Of a stretch of 43,912 nt of DNA, positions 5,871-35,438 are shown piece by piece. The notes beneath the pieces are model-generated. The model was given only the letters and a program-made list of their open reading frames with translations. It was not told the origin of the DNA and ran no database searches. Source of the DNA: a virus; the IMG/VR virus record IMGVR_UViG_3300009103_000060, positions 1 through 43,912 of that record. One strand, given 5' to 3'. Position numbers and translations under genes: made by a program. Within the stretch, counting starts at the first letter, position 1, and every line of letters begins with the position of its first letter.

Positions 5871-6180
5871 TCTTGAGTTTGAATATGAACCAATTAAGAT
5901 AGACTTCATTAGGCCTGCCTCTAAGCACACCTATTGTCCCGACTTAAGACTCCCTAATGGAATCCTTGTGGAGATTAAAGGTGAGTTTGATGCAACGATG
6001 CGGAAGAAACACCTGAACATTCGTAACTCTAACCCTGAGCTTGACATACGATTTGTGTTTGGTAATCCAAATAACAAATTAACTAAACGTAAAAATTCTA
6101 GTACGTATGCTGAGTGGTGTGATAAGAATAAATTCAAATGGGCAGCTAAGACAGTCCCAAAGGAGTGGTTTGATGAATAA
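5746..6180 (+). CDS. Endonuclease I (Holliday-junction resolvase), T7 gp3-like, 144 aa
   Basis: Cleaves branched DNA and helps degrade host DNA and resolve replication intermediates before packaging. Catalytic residues are all in place with the T7 spacing shifted by 11: Glu31 (RSGLE), Asp66 (YCPDLRLPNG), Glu76 and Lys78 (VEIKG). The segments PASKHTYCPD and RKKHLNIRNSNPELDIRFVF follow the T7 protein closely. Length 144 (T7 149). It starts inside the preceding membrane-protein gene and ends overlapping the RNA ligase start (ATGAATAA). Confidence 0.95.
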   Translation: MARWTKKKSPKRKALEAWAKKNKVSHRSGLEIEVQKDLLESNLEFEYEPIKIDFIRPASKHTYCPDLRLPNGILVEIKGEFDATMRKKHLNIRNSNPELDIRFVFGNPNNKLTKRKNSSTYAEWCDKNKFKWAAKTVPKEWFDE

Positions 6181-7111
6181 CTTTAAGAAGTACACAAAGA
6201 TAACTAATCATTACAACGTGCCTATGGGTCGTTTAATGGGTATTCCAAACTATCATAAGACTAGTTGGATTATCACTGAGAAACTGGATGGTGCTAATTT
6301 TTCAGTTATCATCACTAAAGATAATATTCAGTTTGCTTCACGTAATCGTGTGTTAGATGAAAATGAATCGTTCTTTAACTGGCAAGAAGTTATGGGTCGT
6401 TATCGTGAGCAACTAATGACATTCACTTATTGGATGCTCAACAATGGTTATGAGTCGATGCACATCTACGGTGAGCTCTTTGGAGCAGGTGTTCAGAAAC
6501 GTATTCACTATCGGGATGATCAAGACTTCAGAATCTTTGATATGAGACTTAATGGTGAATACATTCCAGTTGGTGAGACAATCAAGATTCTAATGGATAC
6601 TGACACTACTGATATGTTTGTCCCTATAGTAACCTACAAGAACACCCTTCAGGAAGCCCTAGAAGTGAGCCCTGAGGGCCTTAAGGTGGAAGGTGTGGGT
6701 AGAGAGGTAGAAGGGTTCGTAATCGCTCCGTATGACGAATTATTGTACCTTGACCTTTATACACCAGTTCGTATTAAACATAAGACTAAAGCCTTTTGTG
6801 ATAAGATGAATGTCAAAGCAAAAGTTCGTAAGAAGTTTGAAGGTTCACATGAGTACCAGGTTCTTAAACCAATTTGGGATTCAATGATCAATGAAAACAG
6901 AGTGTTGGATTTATACTCTAAGCATGGTAAAATCCAAGACCCAAGTGAAATTGGTAAATATATTAAGTTGATGATCGAAGACGTTAAAGAAGACTTCTTC
7001 GAAGATAATATGGAACTCTTCAAAGGTCTGGACAAGGCTGAACAGAAGAAGCTTATTGGATCAACAGGAAGCTTGGTAGCCCCTCTAATCAAACAATCAA
7101 TGAAAGACTAA
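6173..7111 (+). CDS. RNA ligase, T4 Rnl2 type, 312 aa
   Basis: Seals 3'-OH/5'-PO4 nicks in duplex RNA using ATP, through a covalent lysine-AMP. Nucleotidyltransferase motifs are visible in order: motif I EKLDGANF with Lys37, motif III IYGELFGAG, motif IV VEGFVIAP, and motif V RIKHKTKAF. The opening (FKKYTKITNHYN) and length fit Rnl2 proteins (T4 Rnl2 is 334 aa). I chose the ATG at 6173 because it overlaps the endonuclease stop. An RNA ligase is not part of the T7 core set. Its position immediately before a run of tRNA and tRNA-like elements suggests tRNA repair or sealing, for example after cleavage by host anticodon nucleases. Confidence 0.93.
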   Translation: MNNFKKYTKITNHYNVPMGRLMGIPNYHKTSWIITEKLDGANFSVIITKDNIQFASRNRVLDENESFFNWQEVMGRYREQLMTFTYWMLNNGYESMHIYGELFGAGVQKRIHYRDDQDFRIFDMRLNGEYIPVGETIKILMDTDTTDMFVPIVTYKNTLQEALEVSPEGLKVEGVGREVEGFVIAPYDELLYLDLYTPVRIKHKTKAFCDKMNVKAKVRKKFEGSHEYQVLKPIWDSMINENRVLDLYSKHGKIQDPSEIGKYIKLMIEDVKEDFFEDNMELFKGLDKAEQKKLIGSTGSLVAPLIKQSMKD

Positions 7112-7112
7112 T

Positions 7113-7274
7113 GTGAAAGACTTAACAAGAATTGAAGGTATTATAAAAAAGAAACATAAAAAGTGTAAAGGAAAGGGCTGCCGAAAGTGTAACCATAGTG
7201 GTTATCTTTATGAGGTGTCCGATCTCGGAGCTAAGAACCTTCTAACATTAATTAATAACTTAATAAAGGATTGA
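7113..7274 (+). CDS. Small Cys-rich (zinc-ribbon-like) protein, 53 aa, GTG start
   Basis: Reads from a GTG at 7113, two bases after the ligase stop; the ATG at 7111 is followed at once by TGA. The protein begins VKDLTRIEGIIKKKHKK and contains CKGKGCRKCNHSGYLYE, a compact CxxxxCxxC motif of the CxGxG kind seen in DnaJ-type zinc centres. The same motif type occurs in the 7919 and 40671 products. The start is uncertain because no good Shine-Dalgarno sequence is visible. Confidence 0.6.
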   Translation: MKDLTRIEGIIKKKHKKCKGKGCRKCNHSGYLYEVSDLGAKNLLTLINNLIKD

Positions 7275-7277
7275 ACG

Positions 7278-7370
7278 ATGGAAAAGAAATTTGATACTGC
7301 TGACATGGTAGTTGTACTGGTCGTGCTGGAGCTGCAATATCTTGGATTGATCGCGTTATTGGTGGCGTAG
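7278..7370 (+). CDS. Possible small hydrophobic peptide, 30 aa (maybe frameshifted)
   Basis: An ATG at 7278 after AAAGGATTGAACG gives MEKKFDTADM followed by a hydrophobic stretch ending at TAG 7370. A different frame over the second half encodes GRAGAAISWIDRVIGGVAII then stop at 7384-7386, which looks more like a natural small membrane domain. The intact gene may have been one longer protein now split by a one-base change, or it may use frameshifting. Low confidence in either reading. Confidence 0.4.
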   Translation: MEKKFDTADMVVVLVVLELQYLGLIALLVA

Positions 7371-7499
7371 CGATTATTATACTTTAGATTAAGTGTAATT
7401 GGGTGTGACAGGTATTGCCTTGTTGTATTTAGCGATAGTGACAAAAATACTCTGCCAATTTCAAAAGAGTTTGAAGGAATCTCTCTAAAAAACCCACGT

Positions 7500-7523
7500 C
7501 GATGTGGATAACTTTACACATCG
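7500..7523. repeat. Perfect 7-bp hairpin just before the tRNA-like element
   Basis: CGATGTG (7500-7506) and CACATCG (7517-7523) form a perfect stem with a 10-nt loop, 6 nt upstream of the tRNA-like acceptor. No T tract follows, so it is more likely an RNA processing signal than a terminator. The rest of 7371-7529 holds no gene I can see. Confidence 0.6.
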
Positions 7524-7529
7524 GCATTA

Positions 7530-7665
7530 CAGCGAGTAGCTCAATCGGTAGAGCTGGAGCATTGGAGCTCTGAAGGTGCCTCGGATATGTGGGCTTCCCA
7601 AGACATGGGAACCTGACCCAACGAAGAGGATAAATGTGTAGGTTCGAATCCTACCTCGCTGACCA
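7530..7665 (+). tRNA. tRNA-like element of 136 nt with oversized central insert
   Basis: It has a perfect 7-bp acceptor (7530-7536 CAGCGAG with 7655-7661 CTCGCTG), then A and encoded CCA; a perfect D-stem (GCTC/GAGC) with loop AATCGGTA; and a perfect T-arm (GTAGG TTCGAAT CCTAC, 7638-7654). Between the D and T arms there are 83 nt instead of about 23. A 5-bp stem with a 6-nt loop (GGAGC ATTGGA GCTCT, 7556-7571) is not a canonical anticodon arm. The remainder folds as a three-tier hairpin (CCTC/GAGG, TGGG/CCCA, TTCCC AAGACAT GGGAA, 7579-7629). No anticodon can be assigned. It may be an intron-containing tRNA, a tRNA with a giant variable arm, or a tRNA mimic. Confidence 0.7.
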
Positions 7666-7716
7666 AATTGATATGAAATGAAACAAAGGAGATTCTGAAA
7701 TGAAGTGGAAAGGGTT

Positions 7717-7929
7717 ATGAGTAATAACTTAATCGAAGATGTTTCTGTATGTCGCCCTAAGAGACCCTCTAAGTGTCGCTCTTGTGGTAAGCCTATACAG
7801 TGTGATATATTAGGTATTAAGATGAAAGGTCAACGAGGTTTTAATGATCTATGGTTCCATTGGTCTTGTTGGAATCAGATTGTAAGTAAAGTTGATAGAC
7901 AACAAAGGATGGCTATAAATGACAACTGA
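7717..7929 (+). CDS. Small zinc-finger-like protein, 70 aa
   Basis: Begins MSNNLIEDVSVCRPKRPSKC. It contains CRSCGKPIQC and later WFHWSCW, four or more cysteines with a histidine that could bind zinc. The ATG at 7717 sits within TTATGA, where a six-codon ORF (ATG 7700, MKWKGL, after a strong AAAGGAG) stops. Translation may therefore be coupled to that leader; the in-frame GTG at 7705 is the alternative start. The 3' end overlaps the next gene by 11 nt. Confidence 0.7.
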   Translation: MSNNLIEDVSVCRPKRPSKCRSCGKPIQCDILGIKMKGQRGFNDLWFHWSCWNQIVSKVDRQQRMAINDN

Positions 7930-8146
7930 AGAAATTATTACATGTGGCATGTGTAACGGCTCAGGAAGAGCCCTCAAAGAGACTGGTGAAATAGACCTTG
8001 AGAGTCGTGACTTGAAGGTGAAGAAAGTGATTCCTTGTAGGACTTGTAGAGGTACTGGTAGAATGTTTAAGGTTGTCAGTACAATAATAAAACCTTTTGA
8101 CCAAGATGTCTTTGATGAATTTTTAAAGAATCAAGGTAGATATTAG
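7919..8146 (+). CDS. DnaJ-type zinc-centre protein, 75 aa
   Basis: Begins MTTEEIITCGMCNGSGRALK and has a second motif PCRTCRGTGRMFK. Two CxxCxGxG repeats are the hallmark of the DnaJ cysteine-rich zinc centre, here without a J domain. Such stand-alone proteins are seen in phages; the binding partner is unknown. It starts inside the preceding gene (ATGACAAC) and is followed by an AGGAAGGAGG ribosome binding site for the next gene. Confidence 0.72.
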   Translation: MTTEEIITCGMCNGSGRALKETGEIDLESRDLKVKKVIPCRTCRGTGRMFKVVSTIIKPFDQDVFDEFLKNQGRY

Positions 8147-8159
8147 GAAGGAGGTTACA

Positions 8160-8312
8160 ATGAAATGTATTAAAGATACAAATGGTAAAGTTACTAGAGT
8201 CTCTAATGAAGAGGCTTCTAAGAAAGTTGCTTCAGGTGAATACCAACAACTGCTCTTGATGTTACGCTTCCCTAAGAAGGAATGGAAAACATGGAGTAAC
8301 ACAATTAAGTAA
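8160..8312 (+). CDS. Small basic protein, 50 aa
   Basis: A very strong RBS (AGGAAGGAGGTTACA) precedes the ATG at 8160. The protein starts MKCIKDTNGKVTRVSNEEAS and ends in a basic/aromatic tail (RFPKKEWKTWSNTIK). The NEEASKKVASGEY segment resembles a short motif repeatedly seen in small phage proteins. It was below the usual size cutoff but has normal codon use and good initiation signals. Function unknown. Confidence 0.65.
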   Translation: MKCIKDTNGKVTRVSNEEASKKVASGEYQQLLLMLRFPKKEWKTWSNTIK

Positions 8313-8325
8313 AATCAAAACTCTT

Positions 8326-8417
8326 CTAAGAGTAAGGTTTTGATAGGTTGAAGGATCGATGGGTGAATAGAGATTCCCATCCGCCTATTAGTGAGGTTCA
8401 ATTCCTCACCTCTTAGT
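8326..8417 (+). tRNA. tRNA-like element, about 92 nt, anticodon not assignable
   Basis: A perfect 7-bp acceptor-like stem (8326-8332 CTAAGAG with 8410-8416 CTCTTAG) encloses a strong T-arm (GTGAGG TTCAATT CCTCAC, 8391-8409, 6 bp). The middle hairpin (GATGGG/CCCATC, 8358-8381) has a 12-nt loop rather than 7. The 3' end is T then CAG, so CCA is not encoded. It ends 2 nt before tRNA-His. It may be a decayed or intron-bearing tRNA, or a processing element. Confidence 0.5.
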
Positions 8418-8419
8418 CA

Positions 8420-8495
8420 GCGAGTTGTAGTGTAATTGGTAGCACTCTTGGTTGTGATCCAAGCAGTGAGGATTCGAATTCCTCCTTCTCGACCA
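8420..8495 (+). tRNA. tRNA-His (anticodon GTG)
   Basis: Canonical anticodon arm CTTGG TTGTGAT CCAAG gives anticodon GTG. There is a D-arm (GTG ... TAATTGGTAG ... CAC), a T-arm GAGGA TTCGAAT TCCTC, and encoded CCA. The acceptor (CGAGTTG with CTTCTCG) has two T-T mismatches, and the G at 8420 could be the extra G-1 typical of tRNA-His. The discriminator is A, whereas bacterial tRNA-His usually has C. The weakened acceptor raises the question of whether it is aminoacylated by the host enzyme. Confidence 0.8.
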
Positions 8496-8501
8496 AATAA
8501 T

Positions 8502-8559
8502 GGGAGTACTCTTGGTGAGATCCTAGGTAGATGTGGGTTCGATTCCCCTTGCTCCCCCA
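8502..8559 (+). tRNA. Mini tRNA-like element lacking a D-arm, 58 nt
   Basis: Acceptor GGGAGTA (8502-8508) pairs with TGCTCCC (8550-8556) over 7 bp including one wobble, followed by CCA. The T-arm is GTGGG TTCGATT CCCCT with one mismatch. Between acceptor and T-arm there are only 24 nt, containing CTTGG TGAGATC CTAGG, a 5-bp stem with a 7-nt loop but no U33. The D-arm is absent. The anticodon-arm region resembles that of the adjacent tRNA-His, so this looks like a partially deleted duplicate. Confidence 0.5.
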
Positions 8560-8588
8560 ATTAAAGTCATTAATAAAGGAGAAAAAAT

Positions 8589-35267: not shown

Positions 35268-35305
35268 ATTACCTTAGCTCAGTTGGTAGATAACATGGAG
35301 GTAAT
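35268..35305 (+). other. Truncated tRNA-like fragment (acceptor plus D-loop only), 38 nt
   Basis: A perfect 7-bp stem (ATTACCT/AGGTAAT) encloses TAGCTCAGTTGGTAGA, a textbook tRNA D-arm sequence, with no anticodon or T arm. It sits 10 nt before the intact tRNA(CAT). TATTTGAT..TTAC precedes or starts both elements, suggesting duplication of a tRNA 5' half followed by deletion. Confidence 0.6.
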
Positions 35306-35315
35306 ACTATTTGAT

Positions 35316-35389
35316 TACGGAATGATTTCGATTGGTAAGAAGAATGTTTCATATGCATTGGCATGTGGGTTCGAGCCCCACTTCCGTAA
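35316..35389 (+). tRNA. tRNA with anticodon CAT (Met, or Ile2 if the C is modified)
   Basis: Acceptor TACGGAA/TTCCGTA is perfect. The D-arm is TTC GATTGGTAA GAA. Anticodon arm AATGT TTCATAT GCATT has U33, CAT and A37. The variable loop is 5 nt. The T-arm is GTGGG TTCGAGC CCCAC. The discriminator is A and the 3' bases are CTA, so CCA must be added after transcription. The first pair is T1-A72, so it is not a normal initiator (C1-A72 mismatch) and differs from most elongator tRNAs. Lysidine modification, giving isoleucine, is possible. Confidence 0.9.
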
Positions 35390-35438
35390 CTAAGAAAAAT
35401 AACTAAACTAACTTTAACAAAATAACTATGGGAATATT

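Follow-up and report, generated by a model that had tools for sequence, protein, structure and literature searches.

We found that a T7-like virus carries a T4 Rnl2-type RNA ligase gene followed, on the same strand, by an array of four elements derived from transfer RNAs (tRNAs), and that the pairing of such ligases with tRNA genes recurs across unrelated phages and is not a coincidence. The stretch analysed, referred to as the window, comprises all 43,912 bases of the linear IMG/VR virus record IMGVR_UViG_3300009103_000060, the 5′ end of which lies within an RNA polymerase gene. The reading that we favour, with a probability of about 0.5, is that the ligase is an acquired repair enzyme linked to the tRNA array and that three of the four elements (A, B and D) are rearranged or decayed tRNA genes that do not decode. 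The array itself combines working with damaged tRNA genes. The ligase and the elements, which lie 0.4-1.5 kb past it, are as follows.

6173..7111, + strand: T4 Rnl2-type RNA ligase, 312 amino acids, with endonuclease I on one side and the tRNA array on the other (Pfam, PHROG, PDB)
7500..7523, + strand: 7-bp hairpin directly upstream of element A (predicted fold)
7530..7665, + strand: element A, tRNA-Pro(UGG)-like, 136 nt (Rfam tRNA, fold, likeness to phage tRNA-Pro)
8327..8419, + strand: element B, aberrant tRNA ending in GUCA (T-arm/acceptor scan; fold z = -2.1)
8420..8495, + strand: element C, tRNA-His(GUG) with encoded CCA and A73 (ARAGORN; Rfam 8421-8492, 57.6 bits)
8502..8558, + strand: element D, truncated tRNA without a D-arm (T-arm/acceptor scan)

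The longest open reading frame (ORF) of the ligase runs from 6107, and the ATG at 6173 is its likely start. The protein scores over the curated Pfam cut-offs for both RNA_ligase (PF09414, 2.1e-20) and T4_Rnl2_C (PF18043, 1.3e-9), matches phrog_548 (RNA ligase) at 2.8e-52, and has T4 Rnl2 (2hvq, 3e-22) as its best relative in PDB. Motifs I, Ia, III, IV and V were all found (EK37LDGAN42, R57, E101, F122-D123, E180-G and K202/K204); their residues align with those of T4 Rnl2 and most are invariant across seven phage ligases. When the protein was aligned with six phage ligases, K37, N42, R57 and E101 of the N-terminal half were invariant and equally spaced, and R243 and D270 of the Rnl2 C-terminal domain were invariant too. 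The nearest relatives come from environmental viruses at 33-36% identity. A reading made earlier from the sequence only had called this a complete Rnl2-type ligase, and the presence of both domains and all nucleotidyltransferase motifs bears it out; judged by these residues, the enzyme is probably active. Rnl2-class phage ligases require 3′-OH and 5′-phosphate ends.

A role in tRNA repair predicts that ligase and tRNA genes stand next to each other. We compared 145 non-redundant environmental phage ligases, collected by three alignment-based scans, with the tRNAs called by ARAGORN. Fifteen of the 145 ligases had a tRNA no more than 500 bp away, always on the same strand (15/15), whereas random placement expects 5.5 (P < 1/3000). 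When other ORFs of 150 amino acids or more from the same loci, the 32 that bear tRNAs, served as the reference, 6.1 were expected (P < 1/20000). Adjacency far above chance thus supports a tRNA-repair role, and of the tRNA repair or splicing module proposed by the sequence-only reading, the repair half gains from this recurrence while splicing is disfavoured by the results below. The natural role of Rnl2 is still unclear; the quantifiable association of Rnl2 ligases with tRNA genes supports tRNA as the natural substrate, and we infer the same substrate for the ligase described here.

All four tRNA-shaped elements previously placed within 1.5 kb past the ligase were confirmed on its strand, and their description as two too long (A and B) and one too short (the truncated D) was correct. 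Element A gives an Rfam tRNA match at 7530-7662 (44 bits); it has a C1-G72 pair, A73, an encoded CCA, and perfect acceptor, D, anticodon and T stems. Its anticodon loop is of 6 nt (AUUGGA, closed by GGAGC/GCUCU) rather than 7 nt with U33, and given this loop A probably cannot decode. An insert of ~60-62 nt with its own hairpin is located 3′ of the anticodon arm and before the variable loop and T arm, and an Rfam search of the insert gave no match. The long form is predicted to fold stably (minimum free energy -47.3 kcal/mol, z = -2.1). The 3′ half of A resembles an Acinetobacter phage tRNA-Pro in a BLASTN search of phages, and A was also compared side by side with the TAC1 tRNA-Pro; beyond generic 3′ halves (tRNA-Pro for A, tRNA-His for C), BLASTN of the elements in phages returned nothing. 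A search for transfer-messenger RNA gave only T-loop fragments.

Element C displays what is expected of a decoding tRNA, namely a full cloverleaf, a 7-nt loop and CCA, with U-U mismatches in the acceptor at 5:68 and 6:67; its A73 faces G-1. Element B has a 6-bp acceptor and a T-arm of 5/5, no recognisable D-arm and a non-canonical anticodon arm with a 12-nt hairpin loop. Element D has an acceptor of 6.5/7, a T-arm with one mismatch and CCA, its middle part is similar to C when the sequences are placed side by side, and its fold score is z = -0.25. Neither B nor D was detected by ARAGORN or Rfam; both were found by a scan for T-arm and acceptor, which yields ~7 hits per shuffled window, against 1 hit per 1.66 Mb of shuffled sequence for a strict scan that also requires the D-arm. 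Because the looser scan is noisy, D was assigned from where it lies, from its CCA and from its resemblance to C, not from its score. Two further features are located outside the cluster.

35316..35392, + strand: tRNA(CAU) ending in ACUA (ARAGORN; Rfam 42.2 bits)
35268..35305, + strand: tRNA 5′ fragment, 38 nt (sequence reading)

The fragment, just upstream of tRNA-CAU, consists of ATTACCT, a consensus D-arm (TAGCTCAGTTGGTAGA) and AGGTAAT, which form an acceptor-like stem, and it has no T-arm.

According to the favoured reading, a T7-like phage would have gained the ligase and the tRNA array as an accessory cassette between its endonuclease I and primase genes. The ligase would most likely seal duplex-held RNA nicks with 3′-OH and 5′-phosphate ends, and its likeliest targets would be tRNAs broken during infection, so that translation could go on. 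Since no end-healing enzyme was seen, the nicks sealed would either already have suitable ends or receive them, if healing is required, from the host. Element C and tRNA-CAU may help decoding, and A, B and D would be rearranged or decaying relics, not splicing substrates. Several points weigh against this reading. End-healing kinase or phosphatase domains (PF13671, PF08645) were not found in the record, which may be incomplete; a kinase-like domain is present in 4 of 15 comparable records. PrrC cuts leave 2′,3′-cyclic phosphate ends, so a virus without polynucleotide kinase/3′-phosphatase could not seal PrrC-type cuts unless the host helps. The adjacency P values are optimistic, with kinship and a shared preference for accessory regions uncorrected. 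The stems, CCA and C1-G72 pair of A are preserved beyond what is expected for free decay. Finally, no near relative was found from which selection on the elements could be measured: IMG/VR searches with the ligase, with the DNA polymerase, and with alignments of primase and polymerase gave only relatives of 37-49%, none of them with the ligase.

An over-long tRNA gene beside an RNA ligase also invites the explanation that the long elements hold small introns and that the ligase joins the halves after excision. Element A is indeed a tRNA with ~60 extra nt near a ligase, and ARAGORN in intron mode reads it as tRNA-Pro with a 41-nt intron, but this intron would disrupt the anticodon stem. All single excisions of 10-140 nt were enumerated, and an excision was accepted if what remained had an anticodon stem of 5 bp, a loop of 7 nt carrying U33 and a purine at 37, and a normal variable region. 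None of the excisions of A was accepted in this exhaustive single-excision search, since the anticodon arm of A is uninterrupted as it stands, with a 6-nt loop; shuffled inserts gave a solution in 2-7.5% of cases. Interrupted genes in three other viruses did pass. L292:4109-4237 (-), tRNA-Asn GUU, and L332:9357-9480 (-), tRNA-Glu UUC, are unrelated genes with inserts of 55 and 49 nt, respectively; both inserts interrupt the 5′ strand of the anticodon stem at a shared, unusual site that follows nt 28 or 29. L370 (IMGVR_UViG_3300028048_000281) has two tRNA genes, at 5995-6148 and 7752-7913, in which the anticodon loop is split near U33 by 80-87 nt holding a T-arm, a D-like arm and an acceptor-like stem, that is, a mini-tRNA embedded within a tRNA. 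In all of these genes, a canonical tRNA results when the insert is excised. Since the test recovers them, it has power, and its outcome speaks against splicing of A.

The existence of such one-excision tRNAs lends splicing some plausibility, as does the PF09414 ligase encoded in the 172-kb record of L332. In L370, cuts by RNase P and tRNase Z would give exons with 3′-OH and 5′-phosphate, the ends that Rnl2 requires; a ligase was not found in that 36-kb fragment. As a control set, 120 tRNA-bearing IMG/VR loci were selected by a D-arm pattern with the ligase disregarded. Convincing long tRNAs amounted to ~6 of 401 tRNA-like elements in these loci and 0 of 65 in ligase loci, where the four reported were merged neighbours or doubtful, and PF09414 occurred in 2 of the 19 records that had been selected because they hold odd tRNAs, versus 6 of 48 other tRNA-bearing records. 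The ligase as a companion of long tRNAs was rejected on these counts. The co-occurrence of ligase and elements, which the sequence-only reading suggested checking in relatives, is seen in unrelated phages for tRNAs generally but not for long tRNAs, and the proposal of that reading that the ligase seals cleaved long elements is not supported, given this lack of enrichment and the absence of a canonical excision in A. No splicing endonuclease was recognised either, and we consider splicing highly improbable. The comparisons also show that odd and interrupted tRNA genes occur widely among uncultured phages and that standard tRNA finders overlook them. Literature searches on short phage tRNA introns, or on an RNA ligase together with tRNAs in T7-like phages, retrieved nothing on point in the library searched.

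Alternatively, in line with the decoys for anticodon nucleases that the sequence-only reading put forward, A, B and D could be selected tRNA mimics that soak up host effectors directed at tRNAs, with the ligase mending the genuine ones. Such mimics would have a good acceptor and T arm, often CCA, and a non-decoding anticodon region. Element A, with all stems and CCA yet a 6-nt anticodon loop, is consistent with this, and tRNA-like genes with perfect stems and odd loops are located by Rnl2-family ligases in other viruses.

L424:7732-7806: perfect stems, 11-nt loop
L441:10207-10285: perfect stems, 15-nt loop
L489:1107-1177: perfect stems, 6-nt loop (GCGAAA)

These genes represent 3 of 52 near ligases against 3 of 388 in controls, a weak enrichment (Fisher P = 0.024) that comprises three elements only, is uncorrected for multiple looks and is sensitive to the scan rules. 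Nuclease-evading phage tRNAs with anticodon-loop changes have been proposed (PMC10264068); they resemble A in the altered loop but they decode, which A probably cannot. The inner structure of B and D is poor, as the fold score of D illustrates, and we regard the decoy or sensor role as unlikely. Somewhat less credence is given to the broader idea that phages pair Rnl2 ligases with a class of mimics, composed of A, B, D and the L424, L441 and L489 elements, whose anticodon loops would have been ruined by selection. The ligase and the tRNAs may also be independent cargo of one accessory region. Both collect in the accessory regions of phages, 130 of 145 ligase loci have no nearby tRNA, and a second case did not appear among 166 T7-like loci, nearly all of which lack tRNA clusters. 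Against mere neighbourhood, the enrichment persists relative to other ORFs of the same loci and every one of the pairs is same-strand, which makes this explanation rather unlikely.

The acquired repair ligase that we favour has several known counterparts. Mending of tRNAs cut by host defences is an established strategy of phage Rnl2-family ligases (PMC7824862, PMC10264068). The ligase shares with T4 RNA ligase 2 (gp24.1, Rnl2) and the phage Rnl2 family the same two domains, motifs I, Ia, III, IV and V, and the C-terminal Arg and Asp positions, but it is only 23-28% identical to ligases of isolates and 24-36% to environmental ones, and it resides in a T7-like genome. Like T4, which repairs tRNA-Lys with Pnkp and Rnl1 against PrrC, the virus is a tRNA-bearing phage with an RNA ligase; here, however, the ligase is of Rnl2 type with no known nuclease target, and the record shows no kinase/phosphatase and no tRNA-Lys. 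Of the hallmarks of phage Pnkp and Rnl repair, the linkage of ligase and tRNA was found and an encoded end-healing enzyme was not. Jumbo-phage RNA-repair gene sets likewise hold Rnl2 ligases alongside tRNA genes (PMC7824862), whereas this 43.9-kb T7-like virus has a lone ligase and aberrant tRNA elements, which widens the range of phage RNA repair to include a small genome of T7-like type. Archaeal, eukaryal or group I tRNA introns also make genes over-long, but the ~60-nt insert of A is located 3′ of an intact anticodon arm, is excluded by size from being group I, and has no restoring excision.

The genes of the virus follow a T7-like order: RNA polymerase, single-stranded DNA-binding protein, endonuclease I, the cassette, deoxynucleoside monophosphate kinase, primase-helicase, DNA polymerase, exonuclease, structural genes and terminase. 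In annotated T7-like relatives, endonuclease I is directly followed by lysozyme, by primase or by a small ORF. The sequence-only reading knew of no T7-like phage with this combination, which stands for a full-length Rnl2, detectable in 0 of 166 T7-like loci from known phages and IMG/VR, but needs qualification for short ligase-domain proteins (~150-190 amino acids), which occur in a few T7-like contigs (L237, L253, L244/L249). Besides the ligase and the four tRNA-derived elements, the cassette contains two further small ORFs and three small CxxC proteins.

7113..7274, + strand: small CxxC protein, 53 amino acids, directly after the ligase (ORF with KCKGKGCRKCNHSG; no Pfam family)
7705..7929, + strand: small CxxC protein, 74 amino acids (weak zf-PARP, 3.4e-4, below cut-off)
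7919..8146, + strand: small CxxC protein, 75 amino acids (weak DnaJ CXXCXGXG, 3e-4, below cut-off)

These had been described as zinc-motif proteins; the CxxC pairs are present in all three, but Pfam support is weak and below cut-off. Comparison of the neighbouring small proteins with a defence-system library gave nothing convincing. The closest polymerase relatives of the virus include Roseobacter and Rhizobium phages, and A73 in tRNA-His is an alphaproteobacterial trait; together these hint at an alphaproteobacterial host. In another ligase-bearing virus, L396:2059-2116 (= L193:59-116) is a tRNA-like gene of 58 nt that has an acceptor, a D-arm and a T-arm and lacks the anticodon arm. Elsewhere in the window, a small protein at 2561-2869 matches Lar restriction alleviation at 2.6e-6, slightly below the Pfam cut-off, and a DNA cytosine methyltransferase-like gene at 41104-42006 matches many PADLOC methyltransferase models.

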